Part shown: piece by piece, positions 6,419 through 61,985 of the stretch
How the letters are laid out: every line of letters begins with the position of its first letter
How positions within the stretch are numbered: position 1 is the first letter of the stretch
IMG/VR virus record: IMGVR_UViG_3300027710_001068
Location: 1-64,000 of that record
Length of the DNA stretch: 64,000 nt
Direction: 5' to 3' (one strand)
Origin: a virus
The notes under the pieces: generated by a model
The model's input: only the letters and a program-made list of their open reading frames with translations
Told to the model about the DNA's origin: nothing
Database searches by the model: none
Translations under genes and position numbers: made by a program

Positions 6419-7477
6419 ATGTTAGTGGCCGTACTGGGCGACACCCACTTCGGTGCTCGTAATGATAGTGTGCACTTCTCAGTATTCTTTGAGAAGTTTT
6501 ATAAAGAGATCTTTTTTCCATACATGGAACAACATAATATCAAACACGTCATCCAACTAGGAGATGTATTTGATAGAAGAAAGTATATTAACTTTCAGAC
6601 TCTAAACCATTGTAAAGATTACTTCTTCAAGAAGCTAAACAATGAATACTCATCATGGCTGCTTGTTGGTAACCATGATGCCTACTATAAGAATACCAAT
6701 GATGTAAATTCTTTGGATATGCTTCTAGGTGAATATAAGAATATTAATCTAATAACCAAACCAACTGAGATTGAGTTGGATCGAACAAGTGTGGTGTTGC
6801 TTCCTTGGATATGTGATGATAATATGAGCGATACGATGCAAACAGTTAACTCTACAAAAGCACAAGTTGCTTTTGGACACTTGGAGTTGACTGGTTTTGA
6901 AATGTACAAGGGACAGTTGATGGATCATGGTATGGATCCAAATCTGTTCAGCAAGTTTGACATGGTTGTCTCTGGTCACTACCACCACAAGTCTCATGCT
7001 AAGAATGTTACCTACACAGGGACACCATATGAGATGACATGGTCGGACTATGGTGACTTAAAAGGGTTCCATATCTTTAATACAGAAACGAGAGAGCTTG
7101 AATTCATTAGCAATCCGTTCAAGATGTTTCATAAGTTGCATTATGATGACTTGAACCAACCTGTAGGCTACATTAATGCTTGGGATCTTACAGAGATGGC
7201 TGGTGCTTATGTCAAAGTAATTGTAAGAAACAAGACAAACACTTTATGGTTTGATTCGTTGATTGATAGGCTGGAGAAATCTGGTGTGTCAGATGTTCAG
7301 GTTGTAGAAGATCACTTCCACTTGGATTTGGAGAGTGATGATGATATTGTTAGTCAAGCAGAGGACACTCTGACCATATTGCGTAAGTATGTTGACCAGA
7401 TTGACTCTTCAGTTAACAAACCAAGATTAGAGAACTTATTGAGAACGCTTTACAGTGAGGCTTTGAGTATAGAGTGA
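6419..7477 (+). CDS. 47: gp47 recombination endonuclease subunit (SbcD/Mre11-like)
   Basis: The 352-residue product is the nuclease half of the gp46/gp47 complex, the phage equivalent of Mre11-Rad50 that resects DNA ends for recombination-dependent replication and host DNA breakdown. Metal-binding phosphoesterase motifs are in order: GDTHFG (about residue 8), GDVFDRR (48), GNHDAYY (83) and GHYHHKS (185). The start codon abuts the gp55 stop, and the stop overlaps the gp46 start by four bases, consistent with coupled production of the two subunits. Confidence 0.97.
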   Translation: MLVAVLGDTHFGARNDSVHFSVFFEKFYKEIFFPYMEQHNIKHVIQLGDVFDRRKYINFQTLNHCKDYFFKKLNNEYSSWLLVGNHDAYYKNTNDVNSLDMLLGEYKNINLITKPTEIELDRTSVVLLPWICDDNMSDTMQTVNSTKAQVAFGHLELTGFEMYKGQLMDHGMDPNLFSKFDMVVSGHYHHKSHAKNVTYTGTPYEMTWSDYGDLKGFHIFNTETRELEFISNPFKMFHKLHYDDLNQPVGYINAWDLTEMAGAYVKVIVRNKTNTLWFDSLIDRLEKSGVSDVQVVEDHFHLDLESDDDIVSQAEDTLTILRKYVDQIDSSVNKPRLENLLRTLYSEALSIE

Positions 7478-9192
7478 TAGAATTCAAAACTTTAAAATGG
7501 ATGAATCTTTTAAGTACAGGAAATGCGTTTACAGAAGTTAGCTTGAACACCCACAAGTCGACTTTAATTGTAGGACAGAATGGAGCTGGTAAGAGTACTA
7601 TTCTCGATGCATTGTCTTTTGTGCTTTATGGAAAGCCGTTCCGTAAAATTAATAAACCTCAATTAATCAATACAATCAATGGAAAGAATTGTGTTGTTGA
7701 AGTTGAGTTTGATGTTGGTAAGAAGAAGTACCGAGTAGTACGAGGTATCAAGCCAAACATATTTGAGATTTATCACAACGGTGAGATGATCAACCAATCA
7801 GCTGATGTGAAGGATTATCAGGAGTTGTTGGAGAAGACAATCCTCAAACTGAACCACAAGTCTTTCAATCAGATTGTGATCCTTGGTAGTGCATCGTTTG
7901 TTCCGTTCATGCAACTACCAGCTGCTCACCGTAGAGAGATCATTGAAGATCTTTTGGACATTCAGATCTTCTCTGTGATGAATAGTTTGCTAAAAGACAA
8001 AATTGCAGCCAATAGAACAACAATCACTGATAACAAATACAAGTTGGAAATGGTTATCGACAAGATTGATATCCATAAGAAGCATTTGGAAGCGCAGAAA
8101 GTTGACAACACTCAGCTGATTGCTGATAAACAATCTAAGATTATAAAGCTAACTAATGATGTTACCATAATTAAAAAGAACGTCGAAGCTTTTAATAAAG
8201 AGATTGAAGAGCTCCGCACAAAGCTGATTAACAAAGATAAGTTGTCAGCTAAGCAATCTAAACTGCAAACATTACAGAGACAGATTGGTGAGCGTGTAAA
8301 GAAAACAACAAAAGAGATTGACTTCTTTACTGATAATGATACTTGCCCTACTTGCAATCAAGATATCAGCCAAGAATTCAAAGATAACATGATTGGGGAT
8401 AGAACGAATCAGCAAACCCAGCTTGTGGACGGTTTAAACAAGCTACAAGAGGAGCTCAGCATTGTAGTGGAGTCAATGCAGGAGTTTGCTGAGATAAACG
8501 ATTCTATCGTGGAATTAAACAAGAATGTAGCGGTTAGTAACAATAACGCTAAGTTTTCAAATGAAGCAATCCAGGAATTGCAGATAGAAGTTACTGCTCT
8601 TCAAGAGAAGACAATGAACATTGAGAACAACTCAGCTGAGATCAAAACTCTTTTGGAAGACCAAAAGGCTTTAGGTTTGGCTAAGATTGAGCTTGAAGAT
8701 GAGAAGAGTGTATATGACGTTGCTTCTGTTCTGTTGAAAGATAGTGGAATAAAGACTAAGATCATCAAACAGTACATTCCTGTGATCAATAAACTGATCA
8801 ACAAGTATCTGGCTTCAATGGACTTCTTTGTCAACTTTGAGCTGGATGAGAATTTTGAAGAGAAAATTAAATCGAGGTTTAGAGATGAATTCAGTTACGC
8901 ATCTTTCTCAGAAGGTGAAAAAGCAAGATTGGATCTTGCTCTTTTGTTCACTTGGAGATCAATTGCTAAGTTACGCAACAGCGCTAGTACCAATCTTCTT
9001 ATTCTCGACGAAGTATTTGATGGATCTCTAGACAATACTGGCAACGACGAATTGCTTGGTATCCTTCAAGCATTGACTCAAGGTAATAATGTGTTTGTTA
9101 TTAGTCACAAGACTGATGCATACTTGGATAAGTTTGAAAAGGTGTTGAAGTTTGAAAAGCATAAAAACTTCTCACGTATTGCGGAGGTATAA
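7474..9192 (+). CDS. 46: gp46 recombination ATPase subunit (SbcC/Rad50-like)
   Basis: This 572-residue SMC-type ATPase partners gp47. Walker A is GQNGAGKST near residue 34, and the ABC signature SEGEKARLDLALL lies near 480. Walker B is LLILDEVFDGS near 508, and two long coiled coils flank a zinc-hook CPTC near residue 290. The lengths of the coiled arms are typical of phage gp46 rather than the much longer cellular SbcC. It overlaps gp47 at its start and peptide deformylase at its stop by one base. Confidence 0.97.
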   Translation: MIEFKTLKWMNLLSTGNAFTEVSLNTHKSTLIVGQNGAGKSTILDALSFVLYGKPFRKINKPQLINTINGKNCVVEVEFDVGKKKYRVVRGIKPNIFEIYHNGEMINQSADVKDYQELLEKTILKLNHKSFNQIVILGSASFVPFMQLPAAHRREIIEDLLDIQIFSVMNSLLKDKIAANRTTITDNKYKLEMVIDKIDIHKKHLEAQKVDNTQLIADKQSKIIKLTNDVTIIKKNVEAFNKEIEELRTKLINKDKLSAKQSKLQTLQRQIGERVKKTTKEIDFFTDNDTCPTCNQDISQEFKDNMIGDRTNQQTQLVDGLNKLQEELSIVVESMQEFAEINDSIVELNKNVAVSNNNAKFSNEAIQELQIEVTALQEKTMNIENNSAEIKTLLEDQKALGLAKIELEDEKSVYDVASVLLKDSGIKTKIIKQYIPVINKLINKYLASMDFFVNFELDENFEEKIKSRFRDEFSYASFSEGEKARLDLALLFTWRSIAKLRNSASTNLLILDEVFDGSLDNTGNDELLGILQALTQGNNVFVISHKTDAYLDKFEKVLKFEKHKNFSRIAEV

Positions 9193-25424: not shown

Positions 25425-28016
25425 ATGAATTTTTATACGAATATCCACATTCGCGGCAACGAGGTATTGCTTAGGGGTGTAGAAGATGGTGAGAAGATCC
25501 AACTTGCTATTCCTTATAAGCCATACCTCTTCGTTCCTTCACACGACAGCAACACACCATACAAGACCTTGAAAGGTCAGCCTGTCAAACGTATTGACTT
25601 TGAGTCTATGCGTGAAGCTCGTGACTATGTTGCTCGTTACAAAGAGGTTAACAACTTTCCAATATATGGATTGACTAACTACGGTTATACTTTCATTAAC
25701 GACAAGTATAAAGGTGAGATTAAGTATGATGTGTCTAAAATATCTGTAGTCACAATCGATATCGAGACCGCCTCAGATGATGGATTCCCAGATATTGAAA
25801 CTGCAAACAAGCAGATCACTGCTATCACACTCCGTAAGAATGATCAAGTTGTATCGTTTGGATTGAATCCGTATGAGCCAGAGCTGCCTAACGTAAAGTA
25901 CTTCCACTGTGAGAGTGAAGCTCATATGCTTGAGCAATTCATCCAAGTGTGGTCCTCCAAGCAGTTCAGCCCTGACATCATTACAGGCTGGAACGTTGAG
26001 TTCTTTGACATGCCGTACATCGTTAACCGCATACGTCGTGTGCTTGGTGACTACAGTGTGAAGAAGTTATCTCCATGGGGGATTATGAGTTCCCGTGAGT
26101 TTGAGATTATGGGTAAGACGTATAACCTTGAGCAACCGGTTGGCATTACGATTCTCGACTACATGGCTTTGTACAAGAAGTTTTCGTTCTCACAGCAAGA
26201 AAGCTTCAAGCTCGATCACATTGCCTTTGTGGAACTTGGCGAGCGTAAGTTGGACTTTACTGAGCTTGGGTTTGAGACACTCGATGACTTCTACAAAGGT
26301 GACTTCCGCAACTACATGAATTATAACATTCGAGATGTGGATTTGGTTTATCGTTTGGATCAGAAGCTGAAGCTGATTGAGCAAGTGTTTGCAATTGCAT
26401 ACGATGGTAAGGTTAACTACATCGACACCCTTGCTACTGTTCGTATGTGGGATACAATCATTCACAACTACCTAATGGAAAAAAACATTGTGGTAGAGAA
26501 TCCTAAAGTGATTGAGAAACAACGTCAGATTGAAGGAGCTTATGTCAAAGATCCTCAAGTTGGTAAACACAACTGGGTTGTATCTTTTGACTTGAACAGT
26601 TTGTATCCTCACTTGATCATGCAATACAATATCAGTCCTGAAACATTGACTGGTCAATACTCAAGGTTCGCTAACAGTGAACGGTTCGATGATGATGGCA
26701 CGCTGGTTGATTACAAAGTAACAGATTCGATTGGAATGATTATTGAGGAAAAGGTTCTTGATGATCTTTCGATTCGCAACCAGCTAACTCAACAGAATGT
26801 TACAATCACTCCCACTGGCTGTATGTTCGATCGTGACTACCAAGGGTTCTTACCCAAGCTGATGGAGACGATGTATAACGATCGTTCTACATGGAAGAAG
26901 CGGATGATCGAAGCTAAGAAGCAATACGAGAAGACTCCTACCGAAGAGCTTGCTAACGAAATTGCACGTTGCCATAACATGCAACTTGCAAAGAAGATTC
27001 AACTGAACAGTGCTTATGGTGCTTTATCTAACGTATACTTCCGATGGTTTGATCCCCGACTGGCTGAGTCTATTACAAAGGCTGGCCAGCTATCAATCCG
27101 TTGGGTAGAGAAGAAGATGAACGAGCATCTTAACAAGCTATTTAAGACGACTGGTGAGGATTATGTAATTGCTTGTGATACAGACTCGTTGTACATCCGG
27201 TTTGAGAGGTTGGTTGACATGGTGTTCAAAGATCAGACTGATCACCAGAAGATTGTTGGTTTCCTCGATAAGGCTTGCGAAGAAAAGTTCGAGCCTTTCA
27301 TTGATAAGTGCTACGAAGAGCTTGCTGTTCACGTTAATGGTTATCAACAGAAGATGAAGATGAAGCGTGAAGCGATTGCTAACAAAGGCATTTGGACTGC
27401 AAAGAAGCACTACATCCTGAATGTGTATAACAACGAAGGTGTTTCCTACAAGGAGCCTAAACTAAAGATGCAGGGGATTGAGGCTGTAAGAAGCTCCACT
27501 CCATCTGCATGCCGTGAGTACATTAAGAAGGCTCTTGGTGTGATTATGAACGGTACACAAGAAGAACTAATATCATACATCGAGAGGAGTAGGGTTGAGT
27601 TTAAGAAGAAACCTTTTGAAGAGATTGCATTCCCTCGAAGTGTGAGAGGTCTGAGCAAGTACTACGATTCAAGGAATGGTTACAAGAAAGCTTCTAGGGC
27701 TGGTGTCCCTATTCACGTTAGAGCTGCTCTTGTTCACAATCACTTAATCAAAACCAAGAAGCTAGATAGTACCATCAGTCCAATATACGAAGGTGAAAAG
27801 ATTAAGTTCGCTTACCTGACTATGCCCAATCCTGTTCATGAGAATGTCTTTGCTACTACGGGATCTTTACCTAAGCAATTTGGACTAGAGAGATTCATAG
27901 ATCATGAAACACAGTTCGACAAAGCATTCGTCGAACCAATCAGAACAATTGTCAACGTGATGGGTTGGACTACTGAAAAGGCCAGCTCTACATTGGATGA
28001 CTTTTTTGGGGACTAA
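25425..28016 (+). CDS. 43: DNA polymerase gp43, family B
   Basis: The 863-residue replicative polymerase copies the phage genome with proofreading. The exonuclease site begins with DIETASDDGFP near residue 112. Polymerase motifs are A, DLNSLYPHLIMQYN near 388; B, KIQLNSAYG near 525; and C, ACDTDSLYI near 583. The C-terminus ends with the short acidic/aromatic tail (STLDDFFGD) that in T4 binds the sliding clamp. Length matches T4-like gp43 (about 900). The gene is uninterrupted: no intron or intein was seen. Confidence 0.99.
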   Translation: MNFYTNIHIRGNEVLLRGVEDGEKIQLAIPYKPYLFVPSHDSNTPYKTLKGQPVKRIDFESMREARDYVARYKEVNNFPIYGLTNYGYTFINDKYKGEIKYDVSKISVVTIDIETASDDGFPDIETANKQITAITLRKNDQVVSFGLNPYEPELPNVKYFHCESEAHMLEQFIQVWSSKQFSPDIITGWNVEFFDMPYIVNRIRRVLGDYSVKKLSPWGIMSSREFEIMGKTYNLEQPVGITILDYMALYKKFSFSQQESFKLDHIAFVELGERKLDFTELGFETLDDFYKGDFRNYMNYNIRDVDLVYRLDQKLKLIEQVFAIAYDGKVNYIDTLATVRMWDTIIHNYLMEKNIVVENPKVIEKQRQIEGAYVKDPQVGKHNWVVSFDLNSLYPHLIMQYNISPETLTGQYSRFANSERFDDDGTLVDYKVTDSIGMIIEEKVLDDLSIRNQLTQQNVTITPTGCMFDRDYQGFLPKLMETMYNDRSTWKKRMIEAKKQYEKTPTEELANEIARCHNMQLAKKIQLNSAYGALSNVYFRWFDPRLAESITKAGQLSIRWVEKKMNEHLNKLFKTTGEDYVIACDTDSLYIRFERLVDMVFKDQTDHQKIVGFLDKACEEKFEPFIDKCYEELAVHVNGYQQKMKMKREAIANKGIWTAKKHYILNVYNNEGVSYKEPKLKMQGIEAVRSSTPSACREYIKKALGVIMNGTQEELISYIERSRVEFKKKPFEEIAFPRSVRGLSKYYDSRNGYKKASRAGVPIHVRAALVHNHLIKTKKLDSTISPIYEGEKIKFAYLTMPNPVHENVFATTGSLPKQFGLERFIDHETQFDKAFVEPIRTIVNVMGWTTEKASSTLDDFFGD

Positions 28017-28017
28017 G

Positions 28018-28293
28018 ATGGATTTAAACGAAGACGATGACTTTGGTTTTTCAGCTGTTAGTGAGGAAGAGCTCAAGAAGTATGAGAACGAACTCAAAGC
28101 AGCTGTTGACGAAACCACAACAACTGCTGTACAATTGGAAGATAGATTGGCAAAGCTGTATGCAGCAATTATTCCACTGCTTAACAATCTAGAAAAGAAT
28201 CCAGATAAAGAATACATTCTTTGGCCTGGCCGTGATAAGAAAATTAAGCAATTTAAAATCAAGCTTAAAAACATCTACGAAGGTAAATCATGA
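28018..28293 (+). CDS. Small acidic conserved protein, 91 aa
   Basis: The 91-residue protein starts with an acidic segment (MDLNEDDDFGF), followed by a long helix (EEELKKYENELKAAVDE) and a C-terminal signature EKNPDKEYILWPGRDKKIKQF. The last motif is shared by small proteins next to gp43 in many T4-like phages. Function is unknown. The start codon lies one base after the gp43 stop. Confidence 0.75.
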   Translation: MDLNEDDDFGFSAVSEEELKKYENELKAAVDETTTTAVQLEDRLAKLYAAIIPLLNNLEKNPDKEYILWPGRDKKIKQFKIKLKNIYEGKS

Positions 28294-28469
28294 GTGATTT
28301 TGAAGTACATCCAATTGGTACAACAGAAGAGATTCGTTTGTCGAGGGCTCTTGCAAGAGAAATTCAACAAATAACAGAACAGTATGGTGGAGTGGTCCCT
28401 CATAATGTTATGACAGCGTATAATAAACTTTACGAGTGCTATATTAAACACATTAAAGAGGAAGTGTAG
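28290..28469 (+). CDS. Small conserved protein, 59 aa
   Basis: A 59-residue frame overlaps its upstream neighbour by four bases. The product begins MSDFEVHPIGTTEEIRLSRA, a segment conserved in small aquatic T4-like phage proteins, and continues as two helices. No function is known. It ends one base before the methyltransferase gene. Confidence 0.7.
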   Translation: MSDFEVHPIGTTEEIRLSRALAREIQQITEQYGGVVPHNVMTAYNKLYECYIKHIKEEV

Positions 28470-28470
28470 G

Positions 28471-29115
28471 ATGTTGAGTCCACAAGATTATAAAGATATT
28501 TTGTTACAAACGGTATCGCAAGAAATTGTTGATGCTGACGTAGCTCGCTACTATAATGATGTACCTGTAGTAAGTAATATTAACTCGGCTCTGTTTATGA
28601 AGTGTTTTGAACACAACCCTCTCACAGATGGGCTTGTTGCTGAGTTTGGTGTGCACACCGGTGGTTCTACTGTATTATTAAAAAACATTTTCCAAACTAC
28701 CACCCACGCATTTGACTCTTTCTTAGGATTACCTGAAGATGATGGGCACTTTTTAAAGGGTTGGTTTAACTTAGATGGTAACATTCCTGATTTGCTGGTT
28801 AACGATCCAGACATTGAAGTTTATCCAGGATGGTTCAGCGAATCGATTCCTCCTTTTGCTGAGAAGTATAAAGAACATTTGAGAATGGTTAGTGTTGATT
28901 GTGACACATACATTGGAGCAAAAGATATCTTTACATTGTTGAAAGATCGTTTTGTTAGCGGCACAACAATCTACTTTGATGAGATGGGTCTTTATTATGG
29001 ATGGGAGATTAGAGAGTACAGAGCCTTCCTTGAGTTTATTCAAGAGACTGGATTTGATTATAAGTACATTGGAAAATCAGACAATGATGAAAGATGTGCG
29101 GTAATTTTATTGTAA
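28471..29115 (+). CDS. TylF/MycF-like methyltransferase
   Basis: The 214-residue protein resembles the macrocin O-methyltransferase (TylF) group. Motif I is LVAEFGVHTGGS near residue 54-65, followed by THAFDSFLGLPED, and VSVDCDTYIGAKDI carries the metal-binding acids; IYFDEMG is the later motif. Members methylate sugars or small molecules. A glycan or sugar substrate would fit the glycosyltransferases encoded elsewhere in this window. Its place between polymerase and recombinase genes is unusual for such an enzyme. Confidence 0.8.
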   Translation: MLSPQDYKDILLQTVSQEIVDADVARYYNDVPVVSNINSALFMKCFEHNPLTDGLVAEFGVHTGGSTVLLKNIFQTTTHAFDSFLGLPEDDGHFLKGWFNLDGNIPDLLVNDPDIEVYPGWFSESIPPFAEKYKEHLRMVSVDCDTYIGAKDIFTLLKDRFVSGTTIYFDEMGLYYGWEIREYRAFLEFIQETGFDYKYIGKSDNDERCAVILL

Positions 29116-29129
29116 TTGTGGAGTAATTA

Positions 29130-30155
29130 ATGAGTGATTTTTTAAAAGCGTTGGTCAAAGACCTGAAGGATGAAAATACATCTATTTTGGAAGATGGTGA
29201 GTCTTCTGCTGAGTTTAGTGGTTGTATTGATACTGGTTCGTTTGCACTGAACGCTGTGCTGTCTGGAAGCCTGTACGGTGGTGTCCCTAACAACAAGATC
29301 ACTGCATTTGCAGGTGAGTCTGCCACCGGTAAGACGTTCTTTGTACTAGGCGTTGTTAAACAGTTCCTACAAGACAATCCAACGGGTGGTGTGATCTATT
29401 ATGATACTGAGGCTGCTGTCACTAGAGACATGATGGCAACTCGTGGTATTGATCCTAAGCGAGTGATCATTGCAGAGCCTGATACAATTCAGAAATTCCG
29501 TACTCATGCTTTGAAGGTCATTGAGTCATATGAGAAAGCACCGAAGGATACTCGTCCTCCGATGCTGATGGTACTAGATAGTCTTGGTCTGTTGTCAACA
29601 TCAAAAGAAGTTGAAGACTCTACTGAAGGCAAAGATGTTCGTGACATGACGAAGTCCCAATTGATCAAGGGAGCTTTCCGTGTCCTTACTTTGAAGCTAG
29701 CACAAGTTGGTATTCCAATGCTAGTAACAAATCACGTGTATGAAGTCATTGGTTCTTATGTACCTACGAAGGAGATGGGTGGTGGTTCAGGTCTCAAATA
29801 TGCAGCTAGCACGATTGCTTTTCTCGGAAAGAAAAAGGAAAAAGATGGAGATGGAGATGTTGTTGGCAACATCATCAAAATCAAAATGCAAAAGTCCCGA
29901 TTTACCAAAGAGCACAGTCAAGTCGAAGTGTTACTTACTTTTAACAAAGGACTCGACAGGTACTATGGTCTTTTAGATATTGCAGAAAAGTATGGTATTT
30001 TTAAGAAGGTATCTACTCGGTACGAATTGCCTGACGGCAAGACTGCTTTTGGTAAGCAGATTAACAGTGATCCTGAAAAGTATTACACCACAGAAGTAAT
30101 GGAGCAACTAGAAAAAGCAGTTGCTAAAGAATTCAAGTACGGTAACAACGAATGA
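29130..30155 (+). CDS. uvsX: UvsX recombinase (RecA-like)
   Basis: The 341-residue protein is the phage RecA/Rad51-type recombinase that drives strand exchange and starts recombination-dependent replication, assisted by UvsY. Walker A is GESATGKT near residue 61, Walker B is MLMVLDSLG near 146, and TNHVYE plus KEMGGGSGLKYAAS are the DNA-binding loop region. Length fits T4 UvsX (391) less a shorter C-terminus. It overlaps the following methyltransferase by four bases. Confidence 0.96.
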   Translation: MSDFLKALVKDLKDENTSILEDGESSAEFSGCIDTGSFALNAVLSGSLYGGVPNNKITAFAGESATGKTFFVLGVVKQFLQDNPTGGVIYYDTEAAVTRDMMATRGIDPKRVIIAEPDTIQKFRTHALKVIESYEKAPKDTRPPMLMVLDSLGLLSTSKEVEDSTEGKDVRDMTKSQLIKGAFRVLTLKLAQVGIPMLVTNHVYEVIGSYVPTKEMGGGSGLKYAASTIAFLGKKKEKDGDGDVVGNIIKIKMQKSRFTKEHSQVEVLLTFNKGLDRYYGLLDIAEKYGIFKKVSTRYELPDGKTAFGKQINSDPEKYYTTEVMEQLEKAVAKEFKYGNNE

Positions 30156-30745
30156 TTGAAGATAAAGTCAGACAGGTATTAGCAGGCATTCCTTCTGCTT
30201 GGGGTGATGGAAACACAACAGGCCACGTAGTGTTTGTTGATTGGTTGATTGAAGAGATGAAACCTAAAGTTACTGTAGACTTGGGGATCGATTATGGATA
30301 TTCATTGATTGCTTTTGCCCATAACAATCCAGGTAAGGTATTTGGCATTGATGGATTTGAAGGGGATGAATGGACTGGTAACAGAAACACATACGATCAA
30401 GTATGTGGTCATATTGCAAATCTACAATTAAATAATGTAACTTTAATTAAAGGTTACTTTGATGATGTTGTTAAGACTTGGGATACTAATATCGATCTGT
30501 TACACATTGATGGATTCCATTCCTATGAAGCAGTTAAGAACGACTTTGAAAAGTGGTCAGGATTTGTTCCTAACACAGGGGTGATATTGTTCCATGATAC
30601 TGATAGTCATGATGCACGGTTTGGTGTCAAGCAGTTCTTCAATGAAATCGATATGCCTAAACATGAGTTGATGGGGTTCCAAGGTTTAGGTATAGTATCT
30701 AATAACAAAAAACTAATGAAGAAGATTAAAGAATATACACCATGA
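30152..30745 (+). CDS. Class I SAM methyltransferase
   Basis: The 197-residue protein has a Rossmann methyltransferase core: VTVDLGIDYGYSLIAFA is motif I, KVFGIDGFEGDEWTGN follows, DLLHIDGFHSYEAVKND carries the substrate-side acid and ILFHDTDSHDARFGV closes. It resembles the Methyltransf_24 group found in sugar and surface-polymer gene clusters. It overlaps uvsX and gp41 by four bases each, so it is embedded in a replication operon. Its target is unknown. Confidence 0.82.
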   Translation: MIEDKVRQVLAGIPSAWGDGNTTGHVVFVDWLIEEMKPKVTVDLGIDYGYSLIAFAHNNPGKVFGIDGFEGDEWTGNRNTYDQVCGHIANLQLNNVTLIKGYFDDVVKTWDTNIDLLHIDGFHSYEAVKNDFEKWSGFVPNTGVILFHDTDSHDARFGVKQFFNEIDMPKHELMGFQGLGIVSNNKKLMKKIKEYTP

Positions 30746-33234: not shown

Positions 33235-33702
33235 ATGAAATTTGATCTTGAAGAAATTAAAACGTTTATCGATGCACAGTCTCCAGAGACCAAGATATAC
33301 ATTGGTTGTGATTCGGAACGCTTTAAGAACAAGGGTCAGTGGTACGCTCATTACACTCTAGTGGTTGTTGTTCACATTGACGGCAACCACGGATGTAAAA
33401 TATTTGGTGAAGTTCAAACAGAAAAAGATTATGATCAAAAAGCAAGTAAGCCTTCGTTCCGTTTAATGAATGAAGTGTTTAAGATTTCAGAATTATATTT
33501 GAAGCTTGCTGATGTGATCGCTGATCGTGAGTTTGAAGTTCACTTAGACATTAACCCTAAAGAAGAACACAACAGTAGCGTAGTGTTGTCTCAAGCTGTT
33601 GGTTACATTAAAGGTACTTGCAACGTCACACCTTTAGTTAAACCAAACGCTTTTGCAGCTAGCTATGCAGCTGACCGTTTAAGAGATTTGAGAGCAGCAT
33701 GA
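33235..33702 (+). CDS. RNase H-like DUF458/YkuK-family protein
   Basis: The 155-residue protein shows the DUF458 (YkuK) RNase H-like layout: IYIGCDSERFK supplies the first catalytic acid, HYTLVVVVHIDG and FEVHLDINPKEEHNS the following strand and acids, and VKPNAFAASYAADRL the C-terminal helix. YkuK-type proteins have no firmly known role; a nuclease activity on nucleic acid is plausible by fold. It overlaps the HAD-like gene by four bases. Confidence 0.75.
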   Translation: MKFDLEEIKTFIDAQSPETKIYIGCDSERFKNKGQWYAHYTLVVVVHIDGNHGCKIFGEVQTEKDYDQKASKPSFRLMNEVFKISELYLKLADVIADREFEVHLDINPKEEHNSSVVLSQAVGYIKGTCNVTPLVKPNAFAASYAADRLRDLRAA

Positions 33703-34013
33703 TATACATTGTAGACATTGACAACACAATTTGCACAACCGTTAAAGATCGTTTTGGCAACCAGGATTATGAAAACTCAACCCCAATCCAAGAGCGAATT
33801 GATTATGTCAACAAGCTTTGGGAACAAGGTCATGTGATTCATTATTGGACCGCTCGTGGATCATCTTCTGGTATTGATTGGTTGGAGTTGACCCAGTCTC
33901 AGCTATTCAAGTGGGGTTGCAAATACCATACAGTTAAATGTGGTAAGCCAAGCTACGATGTTTGGATTGATGACAAAGCAATCAACGCAGGAGACATTCC
34001 TCCAGTTCTCTAA
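33699..34013 (+). CDS. HAD-superfamily phosphatase-like protein
   Basis: The 104-residue protein opens with the HAD motif I DIDNTICTT, includes HYWTARGS (motif II serine/threonine) and ends with DVWIDDKAIN (motif IV acids). This minimal form resembles small capsule/LPS-type HAD hydrolases and phage proteins. A sugar phosphate would be a reasonable substrate given the heptose-type genes at 59-61 kb, though distance makes that a guess. Confidence 0.85.
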   Translation: MIYIVDIDNTICTTVKDRFGNQDYENSTPIQERIDYVNKLWEQGHVIHYWTARGSSSGIDWLELTQSQLFKWGCKYHTVKCGKPSYDVWIDDKAINAGDIPPVL

Positions 34014-56182: not shown

Positions 56183-56437
56183 ATGACACAAAAACAACGC
56201 CTCGCTTCCGCCTTCTCTAATGGTGCTGAGTTGACAAGCAAGCAAATCCGTTCGCAGTTCAAGATTGCATCACCAACCAAGGTTGTTTCACAACTACGTT
56301 TGGAAGATGGCATGTCCATCTACTTGAACCAACGTACCGACACTAAGGGTCGTGTTACACAGAAGTACCGCTTGGGTACACCTAGCCGTGCAATCGTTGC
56401 AGCTGGCTACCGTGCTGCTTCTTTGGGTCTTGTCTAA
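56183..56437 (+). CDS. Small winged-helix/HTH-like protein
   Basis: The 84-residue protein is basic. Residues about 14-45 (ELTSKQIRSQFKIASPTKVVSQLRLEDG) have a helix-turn-helix pattern, followed by a wing-like YLNQRTDTKGRVTQKYRLG. This resembles small DNA-binding proteins of aquatic T4-like phages, though no characterised member comes to mind. It has its own promoter and is followed by the next promoter/terminator, so it is a one-gene unit that may act as a regulator. Confidence 0.7.
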   Translation: MTQKQRLASAFSNGAELTSKQIRSQFKIASPTKVVSQLRLEDGMSIYLNQRTDTKGRVTQKYRLGTPSRAIVAAGYRAASLGLV

Positions 56438-56458
56438 TTAATTTGGACTGGCTATAAT
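56430..56458 (+). promoter_or_regulatory. Promoter for the sugar cassette region
   Basis: TTGTCT (56430-56435), 17 bases and TATAAT (56453-56458) form a strong promoter. The predicted start, near 56465, lies at the end of the left arm of the terminator that follows. The genes from 56496 to at least 60823 could be transcribed from here. Confidence 0.85.
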
Positions 56459-56460
56459 CA

Positions 56461-56482
56461 GGGGACTTCGGTCCCCTTTTTT
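56461..56482 (+). terminator. Terminator overlapping the sugar-cassette promoter start
   Basis: GGGGAC (56461-56466), loop TTCG and GTCCCC (56471-56476) are followed by six Ts. The hairpin ends transcripts from the HTH-like gene. Initiation from the promoter two bases upstream would skip its left arm. Confidence 0.93.
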
Positions 56483-56495
56483 ATTGGAGAAACTA

Positions 56496-56768
56496 ATGGC
56501 ATTGACTGCAGATAAAGACACCTATGATTGGATTATTGGTTTGTTGAAGACTAATAAAGTTCAAGTTATTTTTACTAAAAGTGATGGTACCGAACGTACT
56601 ATGAACTGTACACTACGCGATGATATTGTTATTCCTTATGAAAGAAAGACAGAGAAAGTTAAAGCTGAAAACTTTGATATCGTTCCTTGTTGGGATATAG
56701 ATAAAGGGGAATGGAGATCATTTAAAATCTCCTCATTACTTTATGTTAATTTTAGTATAGGTGAGTGA
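56496..56768 (+). CDS. DUF2693-like small protein
   Basis: The 90-residue protein carries IFTKSDGTERTMNCTLRDD and a C-terminal VPCWDIDKGEWRSFKISSLLY. This is the pattern of DUF2693-type phage proteins, thought to fold as small SH3-like barrels. The ATG at 56496 follows TTGGAGAA; an upstream in-frame codon lies in the T tract of the terminator. The stop overlaps the following region, where the next ATG starts one base later. Function unknown. Confidence 0.8.
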   Translation: MALTADKDTYDWIIGLLKTNKVQVIFTKSDGTERTMNCTLRDDIVIPYERKTEKVKAENFDIVPCWDIDKGEWRSFKISSLLYVNFSIGE

Positions 56769-56769
56769 A

Positions 56770-57324
56770 ATGAAAATAGGATTCAATTGTAGTACGTTTG
56801 ATTTGTTTCATGCTGGTCATGTTACAATGTTAAAAGAAGAGAAACGTTTTTGTGATTATTTAATTGTGGCTATTCAAACAGACCCCACAATTGATAGGCC
56901 GACAACAAAGAACAAACCAGTTCAATCTATCTACGAGAGATTCAGTCAGGTATCAGCATGCAAATATGTTGATGAAGTTTTAGTATATTCTACAGAAGAA
57001 GATCTGATGAATATGCTTAAGACTCAACACATTAACATTCGCTTCCTTGGAGATGAGTATAAAACCAAACCATTTACTGGAAAGCAGTGGTGTTTGGATA
57101 ATGGTGTTGAACTTCACTATCACTTAAGAGAGCATCCTTATAGTAGCTCAGCTCTTCGTAAAAGAGTGTATGAAGCTGAGAACTTTAGAATGAGTGTTGC
57201 TAATACATCTAATGTCAGTACTATCCCCAGTGGATTCAACGGTACTACTGCTTCCGACTTATCAAGTCTTATGCCAAAATCTTACCAAAGCATTGTTTCG
57301 AGAGATTTGGGATATACAAAATGA
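56770..57324 (+). CDS. Cytidylyltransferase-like nucleotidyltransferase (RfaE/TagD type)
   Basis: The 184-residue protein begins with the HxGH nucleotidyltransferase motif, NCSTFDLFHAGHVTML, and continues with IYERFSQVSACKYVDEV and a C-terminal SSSALRKRVYEAE, corresponding to the ISSTxxR-type motif. Such enzymes activate sugars or polyols with CTP or ATP: glycerol-3-phosphate, heptose-1-phosphate. With the heptose-type genes downstream, a heptose nucleotidyltransferase is the preferred guess. The ATG start follows GGTGAG; an upstream GTG is possible. The final 40 residues are a serine-rich extension. Confidence 0.85.
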   Translation: MKIGFNCSTFDLFHAGHVTMLKEEKRFCDYLIVAIQTDPTIDRPTTKNKPVQSIYERFSQVSACKYVDEVLVYSTEEDLMNMLKTQHINIRFLGDEYKTKPFTGKQWCLDNGVELHYHLREHPYSSSALRKRVYEAENFRMSVANTSNVSTIPSGFNGTTASDLSSLMPKSYQSIVSRDLGYTK

Positions 57325-58262
57325 TGAAGCGAATTCTTGTTACAGGCCATAGAGGCTACATTGGTTCTGTTCTTTGCAAAATGCTCAAGGAGCAAGGTTA
57401 TTATGTAATTGGTACTGATAATGGTCCTGGTAGTCAATCAAAGTATGTTGATGAGGACTTTTATCTTTGCTTTTCTAATTGCATTCCCTCAGAGGTAGAT
57501 GGTATATTTCACTTAGCTGCTAACAGTTTGTTGGGACCTAGTGCGTATGATCCGATGGTGTATTTTGTTAACAACGTTGGTAATACTTCCAAGATGTTAA
57601 CTAAACTTGGATGGGATGGTAAACCTCTTCCCAAAGTAGTTTATGCTAGTAGTGCTGCTGTCTATGCTCCTAACTATGATAAGACTCCAATTAGTGAAGA
57701 CTTCCATAAAGACTCACCTAACAACTACGGACTGAGTAAGTGGATGAGTGAGCAGGTGATACAAGCGTATTGTAACGTGTTTAACACGCCTATAACTTGT
57801 TTTCGCTTCTTTAATGTAGCAGGAAGCTATGGTGACGTTGGAATTCAAGATAATACACCTCACTTGATTAGCAAACTGATCCAAGCTCAAAAAGATAAAG
57901 TTAACTTTAAGATCAATGGCGAACACTTTGATACACCAGATGGTACTTGTGTAAGAGATTATGTCCACGTTGTTGACATTTGCAGAGCAATGATCCATGC
58001 TTATGAAACAATTGACGATCCTGGTTATAGAGCTTACAATCTTGGCTTAGGTATGGGGACATCAGTACTAGAGATGGTTGAGAAGTATTATAATGTAACA
58101 GGCCACCGTCAGTATGACTTTGTTGGTAAACGTCAGGGTGATCCAGCTTACCTTGTTGCCAATCCCCATAAGTTCAAGGAAGAAACGGGGTTTGTATATC
58201 AACACCATCTGATTGAAGATATGATTAATGATGCTATTGAAGCAAGGAAATTAAATGTTTGA
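57321..58262 (+). CDS. NAD-dependent nucleotide-sugar epimerase
   Basis: The 313-residue protein is an extended short-chain dehydrogenase: the NAD-binding VTGHRGYIGSVLCKML at the N-terminus, YASSAAVYAPNYDKTPISED containing the serine of the catalytic triad, and NNYGLSKWMSEQVI with the YxxxK-type Tyr and Lys. RDYVHVVDICRAMIHAYE is typical of UDP-glucose 4-epimerases. The substrate may be UDP-sugar or a nucleotide-heptose. It overlaps the nucleotidyltransferase by four bases and the next gene by eight. Confidence 0.92.
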   Translation: MMKRILVTGHRGYIGSVLCKMLKEQGYYVIGTDNGPGSQSKYVDEDFYLCFSNCIPSEVDGIFHLAANSLLGPSAYDPMVYFVNNVGNTSKMLTKLGWDGKPLPKVVYASSAAVYAPNYDKTPISEDFHKDSPNNYGLSKWMSEQVIQAYCNVFNTPITCFRFFNVAGSYGDVGIQDNTPHLISKLIQAQKDKVNFKINGEHFDTPDGTCVRDYVHVVDICRAMIHAYETIDDPGYRAYNLGLGMGTSVLEMVEKYYNVTGHRQYDFVGKRQGDPAYLVANPHKFKEETGFVYQHHLIEDMINDAIEARKLNV

Positions 58263-59253
58263 AGAGAATGAGATTTCAATTAAGTCCAAAGGTGGGACTG
58301 AAATGGTTAAGCGTGGGCTAGCAGAACGTCTACCTGAAGGATTGGCCGATGACTTTCAAGTAATATGTTCACGTGTTCGCAATATTGAAGATGATAAGAT
58401 CCGGGTTTATTGGTTACATGATTTACCTGAAGACCCAGAAACTAATCACTTAAAGGATAAGTCTAGTCGAGACCGTTTTCATAAGTTGGTGTTTTGTGGT
58501 CATTGGCAGTACAATCAGTATGTGACAAAGCTTGGTGTGCCACAAGATGATAAGTGTGTTGTGATCGAGACTCCAATCGAGCCTATCCCGCTTATTCCTA
58601 AGTCTAAGGAAGAAATTCGTCTAATCTATACATCGACCCCACAACGTGGGTTGGAATTGTTATACCCCGTTTTTGAAAAGCTGTGTGAAAAGCATGACAA
58701 CATCCATCTAGATGTTTTTTCTAGTTTTGCAATTTATGGTTGGGGTGATGCTGATAAGAGATACTCAGAACTGTTTGATAAACTCAAAGCTCATCCAAAG
58801 GTCACTTATCATGGATTTGCAGACAACGACACAGTACGCGAATATCTACAAAAGAGTCACATCCTTGCTTACCCTTCTATTTGGTCAGAGTGTAACAGTC
58901 GTAGTGTCATTGAAGCAATGAGTGCTGGTTTAATGTGTGTTCATCCCAACTTGGCTGGTTTGTCAGACACAGCTGGTGGTTTAACATTCATGTACCAATG
59001 GGACGAAAACCCTCAAGTGCATGTTAATAAATTCTACCATGCTCTTGATCACGCAATAAGTGTTGTTAACAATGACGAAATGCAGAACTATTTGAGATTT
59101 GTTAAGATGTATGCGGATAGTAGATACAACTGGAGTAAAATTGCTGGCCAATGGGAAGATGTGATGCATCAATTGAAGGCTAGACATCCTGATGAGCAGT
59201 CTCGTAGAATGCAGAAGCAAGAACAAGCAATGTTCCATTACGTTGTAAAATGA
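58255..59253 (+). CDS. Glycosyltransferase, GT-B type
   Basis: The 332-residue protein has a GT4-like C-terminal half: IYTSTPQRGLELLYPVFEKL, then HGFADNDTVREYLQKSHILAYPS and WSECNSRSVIEAMSAGL, the E-x7-E nucleotide-sugar site. The N-terminal half is shorter than usual. It would attach the sugar made by the surrounding genes to an unknown acceptor such as DNA, virion protein or cell-surface polymer. It overlaps its neighbours by eight and four bases. Confidence 0.9.
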   Translation: MFEENEISIKSKGGTEMVKRGLAERLPEGLADDFQVICSRVRNIEDDKIRVYWLHDLPEDPETNHLKDKSSRDRFHKLVFCGHWQYNQYVTKLGVPQDDKCVVIETPIEPIPLIPKSKEEIRLIYTSTPQRGLELLYPVFEKLCEKHDNIHLDVFSSFAIYGWGDADKRYSELFDKLKAHPKVTYHGFADNDTVREYLQKSHILAYPSIWSECNSRSVIEAMSAGLMCVHPNLAGLSDTAGGLTFMYQWDENPQVHVNKFYHALDHAISVVNNDEMQNYLRFVKMYADSRYNWSKIAGQWEDVMHQLKARHPDEQSRRMQKQEQAMFHYVVK

Positions 59254-60224
59254 TTATCACAAAGACTCCACTGAGGGTCAGCTTCTTCGGAGGAGGGAGT
59301 GACATCCCTCAGTTTTATAACAACAACAGAGGATTGGTTATATCAACAACTATTGATAGACCGATCTACATTGCAGTTAATGGAACTCGTACAGCTCACA
59401 CCAAAGTAGTGTACTCTGAAATTGAAATCGTCAATCACTCATCCCTACTTAAGCATGATCGTGTAAGAGAAGTATTACTATACTACGGTATCGACAATCA
59501 TATTGAGATTGCTTCTTTCTCTGATATACCAACAAAAGGAACTGGACTAGGATCGTCTTCAACATTTACTGTTGGTTTGTTGAAGGCAATCCTGGAGATG
59601 TCTAAAACTCAATACAATAACTATGAACTAGCTGAGCTTGCTTGTCATATTGAAATTGAAAAGTGCAATCAACCAATTGGCAAACAAGATCAGTATGCCG
59701 CTGCCTTTGGTGGTTTCAATGCTATTACGTTTGAGGGTAACGATGCAACTGTTATCCCAATCAACATAACTACTGATACAGCTTCTAGGTTGAATGATAA
59801 CCTTATTTGTTTCAATACAGGAATCACTAGACAGGCTTCATCGATACTAGAAGATCAGGTAAAGGGGCTTAAAGATGTGGTTAATGTGGATAATACTGCT
59901 CATATGGTTGATATGGCGGAGGATGCATTCAAATTCCTAATCAAAGGACAGTTAGATGACTTTGGTTCTTTGTTGGGTGATTCATGGGACATTAAAAAGA
60001 AGTTGTCTAATAACATTTCTAACTCTACAATAGACGAGATGTATGGTAAAGCCATGAAGGCTGGTGCTTTGGGTGGTAAAATTTTAGGTGCTGGCGGTGG
60101 AGGTTACTTGTTAATGTATGTTCCTCTTAAGAGCCAAGCACGGGTCATTAAAGCCCTAAGTAACTATGAGATATTTGATTTTAATTTTACCAATCAAGGT
60201 AGTGTAGTGGAGATGAATAAATGA
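59250..60224 (+). CDS. hddA: GHMP-family sugar kinase (HddA-like heptose kinase)
   Basis: The 324-residue kinase starts with ITKTPLRVSFFGGGSDIPQFY, the signature of the D-glycero-alpha-D-manno-heptose-7-phosphate kinase branch. The ATP-binding GTGLGSSSTFTVGLLKA lies near residue 103 and LGGKILGAGGGGYLL near 270. It would phosphorylate heptose-7-phosphate at C1. GmhA, encoded next, makes that substrate. An L-fucose- or other GHMP kinase remains possible. Confidence 0.9.
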   Translation: MIITKTPLRVSFFGGGSDIPQFYNNNRGLVISTTIDRPIYIAVNGTRTAHTKVVYSEIEIVNHSSLLKHDRVREVLLYYGIDNHIEIASFSDIPTKGTGLGSSSTFTVGLLKAILEMSKTQYNNYELAELACHIEIEKCNQPIGKQDQYAAAFGGFNAITFEGNDATVIPINITTDTASRLNDNLICFNTGITRQASSILEDQVKGLKDVVNVDNTAHMVDMAEDAFKFLIKGQLDDFGSLLGDSWDIKKKLSNNISNSTIDEMYGKAMKAGALGGKILGAGGGGYLLMYVPLKSQARVIKALSNYEIFDFNFTNQGSVVEMNK

Positions 60225-60823
60225 AGTCATTCTTTTTTGATGCTTATGCTTCTGGTGTGACAGAGGCATTGAGTAAAATCGATAGGTATAAAATAAGTGA
60301 AGCTATCAAAGTGATTGAGATGTATGCTAAAGAGCAGTCACCAATCTATGTGTTTGGTAATGGAGGTTCAGCTGCTTTGTCTGAACACTTCTCATGTGAT
60401 CACACTAAAGGAGTAAGACATGATACTCCTTTGCAATCAAACATTATCAGCTTAGCTTCCAACATGGCTTTGATTACTGCTATTGCAAACGATTACAGTT
60501 ATGATGACATCTTTTCTAAACAAATAGAAGCATTCCCCAACAACAGAGGATTAGCAATTGCTATTTCAGCTAGTGGCAACTCAAAGAACATTGTTAAAGG
60601 TCTTCGTAAGGCTGGTGAAAAGGGTTTAGAAACAATGGCATTTGTTGGGTTCAACGGCGGACAAGTTGTTGACTATGAGTTGGCTGATTACATTGTTCAT
60701 GTCCCTTCTGATAACTACGGTATTGTTGAGGATTGTCATCAGATCCTAATGCATTCAATTGCTCAAGCTATTCGTTCTAAGCACTTCTTGGCTAAGGATG
60801 ATAACCACGAATTGAAGCTATGA
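60221..60823 (+). CDS. gmhA: GmhA-like sedoheptulose-7-phosphate isomerase
   Basis: The 200-residue SIS-domain protein follows the phosphoheptose isomerase pattern: VFGNGGSAALSEHFSCDHTKG, then NYSYDDIFSKQIEAF-like (here NDYSYDDIFSKQIEAF), AISASGNSKNIVKGLRKA and the C-terminal EDCHQILMHSIAQAI with metal-binding His. It converts sedoheptulose-7-phosphate into heptose-7-phosphate, the first step of nucleotide-heptose synthesis. It overlaps the kinase gene by four bases. Confidence 0.93.
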   Translation: MKSFFFDAYASGVTEALSKIDRYKISEAIKVIEMYAKEQSPIYVFGNGGSAALSEHFSCDHTKGVRHDTPLQSNIISLASNMALITAIANDYSYDDIFSKQIEAFPNNRGLAIAISASGNSKNIVKGLRKAGEKGLETMAFVGFNGGQVVDYELADYIVHVPSDNYGIVEDCHQILMHSIAQAIRSKHFLAKDDNHELKL

Positions 60824-61107
60824 GTAATAAAGTCCTTTTCTTTCCTAAGGAAAAACTAGACACTGCTCCTCAGTCGTTAGAGGAAGTGATTTCCAAGATT
60901 GATGAGAACCAAAGAGATGCAGTTGAAGCTGCACTTGATGAAGTGGTACCAGACCTCTTAAACCACCTAGGATCGTTTAACTTTTACATCCAGGATGAGA
61001 AAGACATTGGTATGGTGTTAGAGTCTATCAAGAGTGGTGTATTCCGTACAATGAACATTAAACATGAACTACAGGACGTCACTGATCAGTTGATTAAAAT
61101 TGTGTAA
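60820..61107 (+). CDS. Small acidic protein, 95 aa
   Basis: The 95-residue protein is acidic and helical (QSLEEVISKIDENQRDAVEAAL, DEVVPDLLNHLGSFNFY, DEKDIGMVLESIKSGVFRTM). Proteins of this kind near rnh are conserved among T4-like relatives without assigned role. It overlaps gmhA by four bases. The promoter of the next gene lies within its last codons. Confidence 0.75.
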   Translation: MSNKVLFFPKEKLDTAPQSLEEVISKIDENQRDAVEAALDEVVPDLLNHLGSFNFYIQDEKDIGMVLESIKSGVFRTMNIKHELQDVTDQLIKIV

Positions 61108-61124: not shown

Positions 61125-61985
61125 ATGATAATCCTTGACCTAAACCAAATCATGATCTCCAATGTGCTTCAGCAACTTGGAAATCATACAAATGTAGAGA
61201 TTGAAGAAAACCTTGTTCGCCACATGGTTCTCAACTCTATCCGTAACCTTAAGACCAAATATAAAAGTTATGGTCAGCTTGTCATTGCTTGTGATGATAA
61301 GAAGTATTGGAGACGTGAGCAGTTTCCAGCTTACAAAGGCAATCGTAAGAAAGATAGAGAGAAGTCTGAGATTGATTGGACAACTCTTTTCAATACACTC
61401 AACACTATTAAACAAGAACTTAAAGAGTTCTTTCCTTACCCCATCATCCAGGTAGAAGGTGCAGAGGCAGATGACGTTATTGGTTGTCTGGTTGCGGAAT
61501 TTGGTGTTTCACTAAATAGTTCATCTGCTGAAAAGATTCTTATTTTGTCTGGCGATAAGGATTTTGTTCAGTTACAATCGTATGTAAATGTTAGCCAGTA
61601 TGATCCTATTCATAAAAAGAACATCACTTGCAAAGATCCAGCACAGTTCTTGAAAGAGTTAGTCCTTAAAGGTGATCGTGGGGATGGAATTCCAAACGTG
61701 TTATCGCCCGACAACTGCCTCATCGAAGGCGTTAGACAAAAGCCTCTTACTGCTAAGAAGATGGCTGAGCTCCTTGCTGTTGATCCATCCACATATAATT
61801 CAGAAATTAGATCAAACTTTATGAGAAACAACTCTCTCATCGATCTCACATTTACTCCTAAATCAATTTCCCAAGCTGTGATTGAACAGTATCGTTCTCA
61901 GCAAGATAAGCCTAGAGATAAGTTGTTCAATTACTTTGTTAAACATAAGCTCAAAACATTAATAGAGAGTATCAACGAGTTTTAA
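61125..61985 (+). CDS. rnh: RNase H (T4 Rnh-type 5' nuclease)
   Basis: The 286-residue protein is a FEN/5'-nuclease that removes RNA primers and adjoining DNA from lagging strands. Metal-binding acids appear in IILDLNQIMISN, LVIACDDKKYWRREQFPAYKGNRKK, VEGAEADDVIGCLV near residue 107 and ILSGDKDFVQL near 144; LKGDRGDGIPNVLSPDN is the H3TH DNA-binding part. Length is near T4 Rnh (305). The message is predicted to lack a leader. Confidence 0.93.
   Translation: MIILDLNQIMISNVLQQLGNHTNVEIEENLVRHMVLNSIRNLKTKYKSYGQLVIACDDKKYWRREQFPAYKGNRKKDREKSEIDWTTLFNTLNTIKQELKEFFPYPIIQVEGAEADDVIGCLVAEFGVSLNSSSAEKILILSGDKDFVQLQSYVNVSQYDPIHKKNITCKDPAQFLKELVLKGDRGDGIPNVLSPDNCLIEGVRQKPLTAKKMAELLAVDPSTYNSEIRSNFMRNNSLIDLTFTPKSISQAVIEQYRSQQDKPRDKLFNYFVKHKLKTLIESINEF

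Follow-up and report, generated by a model that had tools for sequence, protein, structure and literature searches.

The 64,000-base window analysed here comprises bases 1-64000 of a 70,090-base virus record (IMG/VR, IMGVR_UViG_3300027710_001068). It carries a cassette of overlapping genes for a nucleotidyltransferase (NT), an epimerase (EPI), a glycosyltransferase (GT), a heptose kinase-like protein (HddA) and a sedoheptulose-7-phosphate isomerase-like protein (GmhA). We propose that the products of this phage operon probably turn host sedoheptulose-7-phosphate into a nucleotide-activated heptose and pass the heptose on to an acceptor. Heptose synthesis and transfer had already been suggested by a sequence-only reading of this DNA. 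The suggestion is supported because heptose enzymes are the best profile matches of HddA and GmhA and, more strongly, because GmhB-type phosphatase genes occur in the operons of relatives. Indeed, the strongest argument for heptose is comparative, supported by the GmhB-type genes of the sister cassettes and by the co-occurrence of HddA and GmhA.

From the gene content we infer the following pathway, in an operon that is probably expressed early. GmhA would convert sedoheptulose-7-phosphate into D-glycero-D-manno-heptose-7-phosphate, which HddA would phosphorylate at C1. The 7-phosphate would be removed either by a small HAD protein encoded at 33699, away from the cassette, or by a host phosphatase, and NT would join heptose-1-phosphate to a nucleotide (ADP, CDP or UDP), giving a nucleoside diphosphate (NDP)-heptose. 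The GalE-like EPI may then alter the NDP-heptose, probably at C4, and the GT, as a soluble GT4 enzyme, would move the sugar to an acceptor with a role during infection.

The gene run and its relatives

Proteins of Caulobacter phage Cr30 match along the window at 21-58% identity, including the major head protein (58%), gp46/47, the clamp loader, DNA polymerase, the primase-helicase and the T4-type rnh. Because these Cr30-like head, gp46/47, replication and rnh proteins are found along it, the window is assigned by its sequence to a T4-superfamily myovirus. A DNA-level phage search returned short matches only. All five open reading frames (ORFs) reported earlier, with overlaps given as four to eight bases, are present, and the overlaps are of 4 (NT/EPI), 8 (EPI/GT), 4 (GT/HddA) and 4 bases (HddA/GmhA). 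These five genes are indeed coupled behind a promoter-like site, but the coupled run extends to seven, as a WYL_2 gene 5' of NT and a 95-aa gene 3' of GmhA are also joined, with rnh next (Table 1). The WYL_2 ORF has its likely start at ATG 56496, while NT starts at GTG 56761 or, likelier judging by relatives, at ATG 56770.

Table 1. Features of the cassette locus and the detached phosphatase candidate (window coordinates)
Feature	Position	Strand	Basis
Promoter-like site TTGTCT-17-TATAAT	56430..56458	+	similar -10 box, same place, in L002, L032, L033, L039
Terminator-like hairpin AGGGGAC-TTCG-GTCCCCT + T-run, directly 3' of promoter (PeSL-like)	56460..56482	+	hairpin kept in relatives
WYL_2 / DUF2693 protein, constant left border of locus	56484..56768	+	PF10902 53.1 bits; kept before module in relatives
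NT, heptose-1-phosphate nucleotidyltransferase-like	56761..57324	+	TIGR02199 67.4 bits, phrog_7878 118 bits
EPI, GalE-like NDP-sugar 4-epimerase	57321..58262	+	TIGR01179 218 bits; best PDB match GalE
GT, GT4-type GT-B glycosyltransferase, constant core of locus	58255..59253	+	PF00534; phrog_2170 147 bits
HddA, heptose kinase-like	59250..60224	+	NF049969 185 bits; PDB 4usm, 3k85, 4n3o
GmhA, sedoheptulose-7-phosphate isomerase-like SIS protein	60221..60823	+	PRK13936 110 bits, TIGR00441 107 bits; PDB GmhA
Conserved 95-aa protein (hyp95), coupled to GmhA, right border	60820..61107	+	ORF list and locus comparison
T4-type rnh, locus anchor	61125..61985	+	PF09293, PF02739
Small HAD (AfhF/EcbF-like), candidate sugar-1,7-bisphosphate phosphatase, away from cassette	33699..34013	+	9iqw E 5e-17; Foldseek 9iqw

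The cassette is a real, actively maintained gene set and not a product of chance, since its proteins have strong profile matches, its ratios of nonsynonymous to synonymous substitution (dN/dS) are low, and the comparison among relatives that had been proposed finds its gene order recurring in dozens of viral contigs. Against locus L002, dN/dS is 0.06-0.10 for WYL_2, EPI, GT, HddA and GmhA and 0.04 for hyp95 and rnh, the NT value being saturated; the small HAD, compared with L065, lies in the same 0.06-0.10 range. These estimates point to purifying selection on the cassette and the small HAD.

More than 100 loci were compared, redundant contigs included. Their general order is Grx-WYL_2-[NT, HAD, GmhB, EPI or 4,6-dehydratase]-GT-HddA-GmhA-(hyp360)-hyp95-rnh, with variants such as GT-HAD-EPI, a dTDP-glucose-4,6-dehydratase-like short-chain dehydrogenase/reductase (SDR) in the L103 module, and the GT alone at the same site in some loci and in complete phiM12. 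Co-occurrence was counted in the 43 GT loci whose flanks reach at least 2.2 kb to either side, a sample based on the GT and not chosen by heptose genes: 33 have HddA together with GmhA, 10 lack the pair, and none has one without the other (0/43). In addition, the window and L002 mostly share 80-94% of their nucleotides over the rest of the cassette, but identity drops to 48-64% across NT (56750-57330), so the NT gene was replaced between them. On these comparisons, the GT is the fixed element at a Grx-WYL_2-[module]-rnh site of T4-superfamily phages, around which the sugar-supply genes are exchanged. The NT replacement is a clean swap of a single gene within the operon. At another locus (L045, phage DLP6), a GT29-like protein of the sialyltransferase family (6940-7731) adjoins the conserved GT, a glutaredoxin and a methyltransferase.

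The left border of the run has a structure of its own. Position 56453, where the sequence-only reading began the cassette, is the -10 box of the promoter-like site, directly followed by the terminator-like hairpin. Promoter-like sites alone are no commoner in the window than in shuffles, while the promoter-hairpin composite occurs once in the window and is absent from the shuffles. The pair is credible because relatives retain it in the same position, with stems that differ in sequence: L002, L030, L032, L033 and L039 all have the hairpin, most of them with a recognisable -10 box. The succession of a predicted early promoter and, directly after it, a terminator hairpin is that of the promoter-early stem-loop (PeSL) elements of T4-like phages, and by sequence the border fits them. 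Such elements have been described as places where modules are shuffled (PMC4503421, which cites Arbiol 2010 and Comeau 2014).

Enzymes, phosphatases and the sugar

The five enzymes can be placed in families. For HddA, the next sugar kinase model after NF049969 is a fucokinase at 83 bits, the motifs GLGSSS and GAGGGG are present, and the nearest PDB entries are heptose kinases; the profile searches pointed to neither a fucose nor a colitose pathway. The GT has a GT-B fold predicted by AlphaFold2 (AF2; pLDDT 91.7) and an E-x7-E motif in the alignment, as expected of a GT4 retaining GT-B glycosyltransferase, with BshA, PimA, TarM, SdgB, GtfA and SenB among the Foldseek neighbours of the model. 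The epimerase proposed earlier is confirmed as such, but it is GalE-like: with 218 bits for GalE (TIGR01179) and 83 bits for HldD (TIGR02197), its identification as HldD, the ADP-heptose 6-epimerase, was rejected. EPI is an extended SDR with GxxGxxG and YxxxK whose nearest PDB match is also GalE, and we place it in the GalE-type 4-epimerase family with a predicted substrate. Since locus L211 joins GmhB, EPI and the heptose genes in one overlapping run (NT-GmhB-EPI-GT-HddA-GmhA), EPI would belong to the same pathway. For NT, the model of the HldE C-domain (TIGR02199) ranks at the top and TagD is a close second, and the alignment shows an HxGH motif. Membership of NT in the STTR5 group, a motif of promiscuous heptose nucleotidyltransferases described in a commentary (PMC11461863), was rejected because an aromatic residue replaces the arginine at position 5 of (F/L)xxGxSTT (Y in the window; Y, F or W in viral relatives).

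Two kinds of phosphatase could complete the pathway. The small HAD at 33699, suggested earlier as the missing GmhB, has 104 aa, and its residues D6, D8, T51, K83, D91 and D92, from the four HAD motifs, are invariant in 32 sequences. Both its profile and Foldseek matches lead to PDB 9iqw, titled phage HY126 D-arabinose 1,5-diphosphate phosphatase (AfhF), and its predicted activity is that of the AfhF/EcbF-like HAD sugar phosphatase family. The name 'phosphoheptose isomerase' given to this family by phrog_1238 and many phage annotations was rejected as a misnomer for a HAD phosphatase. Heptose-pathway genes lie in the fetched flanks of its homologues at 55/80 viral loci, mostly as Grx-WYL2-HAD-GT-HddA-GmhA-hyp360-hyp95-rnh, that is, at the genome site of the window cassette; in cyanophage SynMITS9220M01 a homologue is fused to NT. 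In the window and in records G016 and G025, the HAD is detached and the cassette has no phosphatase. These associations make it plausible that the HAD acts as the 7-phosphate phosphatase of the cassette. Other sister viral cassettes instead encode, between NT and GT, a HAD-IIIA protein of 180 aa whose motifs resemble those of GmhB. No GmhB is present in the window's record (G000), and neither GmhB in HAD-type records nor the small HAD in GmhB-type records was found, many of these records being fragments. Free interchange of the two phosphatases was rejected on the rnh tree, where HAD-type loci form one clade and GmhB requires three changes (several branches are weak).

Several findings weigh against a heptose pathway. 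All proteins score below the NCBIfam equivalog cut-offs (HddA 185/600 bits; GmhA 107/209 for TIGR00441, with 276 for PRK13936; NT 67/181; GalE 218/262, the last reached by the relative L030 with 264), and the enzyme calls are family-level assignments for this reason. The closest named relative of NT, in cyanophage S-B43, belongs to a cluster that has neither HddA nor GmhA. The metal site of the phage GmhA reads H-D-E-H: H61 and H183 are retained, but two of the four bacterial ligands are changed, E65 to D and Q175 to E, in the ligand numbering of Burkholderia GmhA. The substrate of this GmhA may differ because of these two replacements. Finally, complete Cr30 has the cassette genes with neither small HAD nor GmhB, and the contigs behind L195, L199 and L241 (151-164 kb) carry EPI-type cassette genes without the small HAD. 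The small HAD as substitute for GmhB finds favour in its cassette homologues, the NT fusion and 9iqw, whereas its absence from Cr30 and the near-complete EPI-type genomes led us to reject it as an obligatory part; in Cr30 a host enzyme must serve, if the pathway runs. Separately, D and E at the two altered metal-ligand positions are uniform among the phage GmhA proteins, where bacterial GmhA has E and Q.

Could these enzymes handle another sugar? The SIS isomerase and the GHMP kinase might instead take a five- or six-carbon sugar phosphate such as D-arabinose-5-phosphate as substrate, in keeping with the altered metal ligands, with the D-arabinose-1,5-diphosphate phosphatase nearest to the small HAD and with the low HddA score of the HAD-type clade (121 bits). 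We regard this as improbable: the SIS protein matches GmhA families, no KpsF/KdsD model being among the listed profile matches, the kinase prefers the HddA model clearly over fucokinase, and the sister cassettes encode GmhB-type phosphatases.

Candidate acceptors

None of the candidate acceptors clearly stands out; phage DNA and the host envelope appear about equally likely, and a virion protein less so. The genomic context outside phages does not help, as the GT, searched against GTDB genomes, retrieved mostly phage-like contigs in bins plus one isolated copy in Caballeronia. That copy (L150, Caballeronia grimmiae R27) is a lone chromosomal GT with 43% identity, beside a NUDIX-like gene.

It is tempting to speculate that the GT heptosylates a hydroxylated base of the phage DNA and so guards the genome from restriction, in parallel with RB69-type arabinosylation. 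In Mosigvirus phages, a putative DNA arabinosyltransferase occurs alongside genes for an isomerase, an epimerase, a kinase and an NTP-transferase (PMC13390438). The tentative DNA reading also agrees with a T4-superfamily locus placed beside replication and nucleotide genes under an early-type promoter, with the homology of the small HAD to the phage arabinose-bisphosphate phosphatase AfhF, and with base-modifying enzymes in relatives: Tet_JBP proteins in Cr30, DLP6 and G003, and gp42-like thymidylate-synthase-family enzymes in G004, G013 and G016. However, complete phiM12 combines the GT with a canonical thymidylate synthase and no Tet_JBP, neither enzyme is found in G006 (149 kb), in G015 (129 kb) or in the window's 70-kb record, itself an incomplete genome, and T4 DNA glucosyltransferases are not among the best folds of the GT. 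More speculative still is a specific form of DNA hypermodification with heptose or modified heptose, in which the GT would glycosylate a base hydroxylated by a TET/JBP, gp42-like or unknown enzyme and swaps of the supply genes would alter the decoration to evade restriction. Heptose is, in turn, a classical sugar of lipopolysaccharide (LPS) and capsule, and the GT has weak profile matches to LPS and exopolysaccharide glycosyltransferases. A transfer to host LPS or another surface glycan, by which the phage would remodel the surface of the cell so as to keep other phages out or escape readsorption, is thus a comparably tentative option, and authors working on a pelagimyophage (PMC7029224) and a cyanophage (PMC7378029) interpret such genes likewise. 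Yet the GT stays constant while the donor genes vary widely, which rather suits an acceptor encoded by the phage, and no gene for a membrane protein or flippase was seen next to the GT. A capsid or tail protein seems a rather unlikely acceptor: the protein O-glycosyltransferases SdgB and GtfA are Foldseek neighbours of the GT, but so are BshA, PimA, TarM and SenB, the adjoining genes serve replication and nucleotide metabolism, not structure, and the T4 late promoter motif TATAAATA was not found near the cassette.

Other genes in these genomes touch on base or sugar modification. The Tet_JBP domain (77 and 70 bits) lies in Cr30 at 59353-60681 (L154) and in DLP6 at 27179-28507 (L155), with the G003 homologue at L166; these proteins, of which that of Cr30 is annotated as a putative SNF2 DNA repair protein, are possible DNA base oxidases. 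In the window, a 2-oxoglutarate-Fe(II) oxygenase (PF13640; 49454-50711), which is not Tet_JBP, stands directly 5' of thyX. Two TylF/Methyltransf_24-type methyltransferases are encoded at 28471-29115 and 30152-30745, close to the genes for DNA polymerase and helicase. Sugars are among the substrates that enzymes of this type can methylate, and the glycan transferred by the GT might be a target.

Known systems and significance

Phage heptose genes are already known. They are annotated in Cr30 (NC_025422), also of the T4 superfamily, which shares with the window a GalE-like epimerase, the GT (48% identity), HddA and GmhA in the same order. Cr30 differs in having its NT on the far side of rnh and one additional small ORF inserted, and neither phosphatase was found in it. 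Similarly, Synechococcus phage SynMITS9220M01 (MT408532, PMC7378029) has a GT-HddA-GmhA-NT cluster announced as heptose-related LPS synthesis; it differs in its HAD-NT fusion, an annotated HldD 6-epimerase, an only distantly similar GT and another genome site. The known HddC-containing heptose system has GmhA and HddA in common with the window, and GmhB with its relatives, whereas the window has an HldE-C/TagD-type NT in place of HddC and adds the GalE-like epimerase. Phage DNA arabinosylation (RB69, PMC6024577; Mosigvirus NP, PMC13390438; AfhF of HY126, PDB 9iqw) follows the same isomerase-kinase-phosphatase-nucleotidyltransferase-GT logic with a homologous HAD; the sugar differs, and arabinosylated DNA was measured in RB69 and NP, while a DNA modification by the window cassette is hypothetical. 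In the survey of Tang et al. 2024, as presented in the commentary PMC11461863, viral NDP-heptose enzymes were assayed; the isomerase, kinase and nucleotidyltransferase are virus-encoded, and the viruses are said to have no phosphatase. Compared with that account, GmhB-type and AfhF-type phosphatase candidates are found here and the STTR5 motif is absent.

New here are a modular locus centred on the GT, the promoter-hairpin pair at its border and candidates for the phosphatase. Earlier reports of virus-encoded NDP-heptose enzymes gave neither a phosphatase nor a purpose for them; the locus family described here offers two candidate phosphatases, GmhB within the cassette and the AfhF-like HAD, together with a dedicated glycosyltransferase. 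Moreover, a cultured relative, Cr30, which grows on Caulobacter crescentus, makes the product and its acceptor accessible to direct test. If the acceptor is indeed DNA, heptose would represent a new class of DNA sugar.

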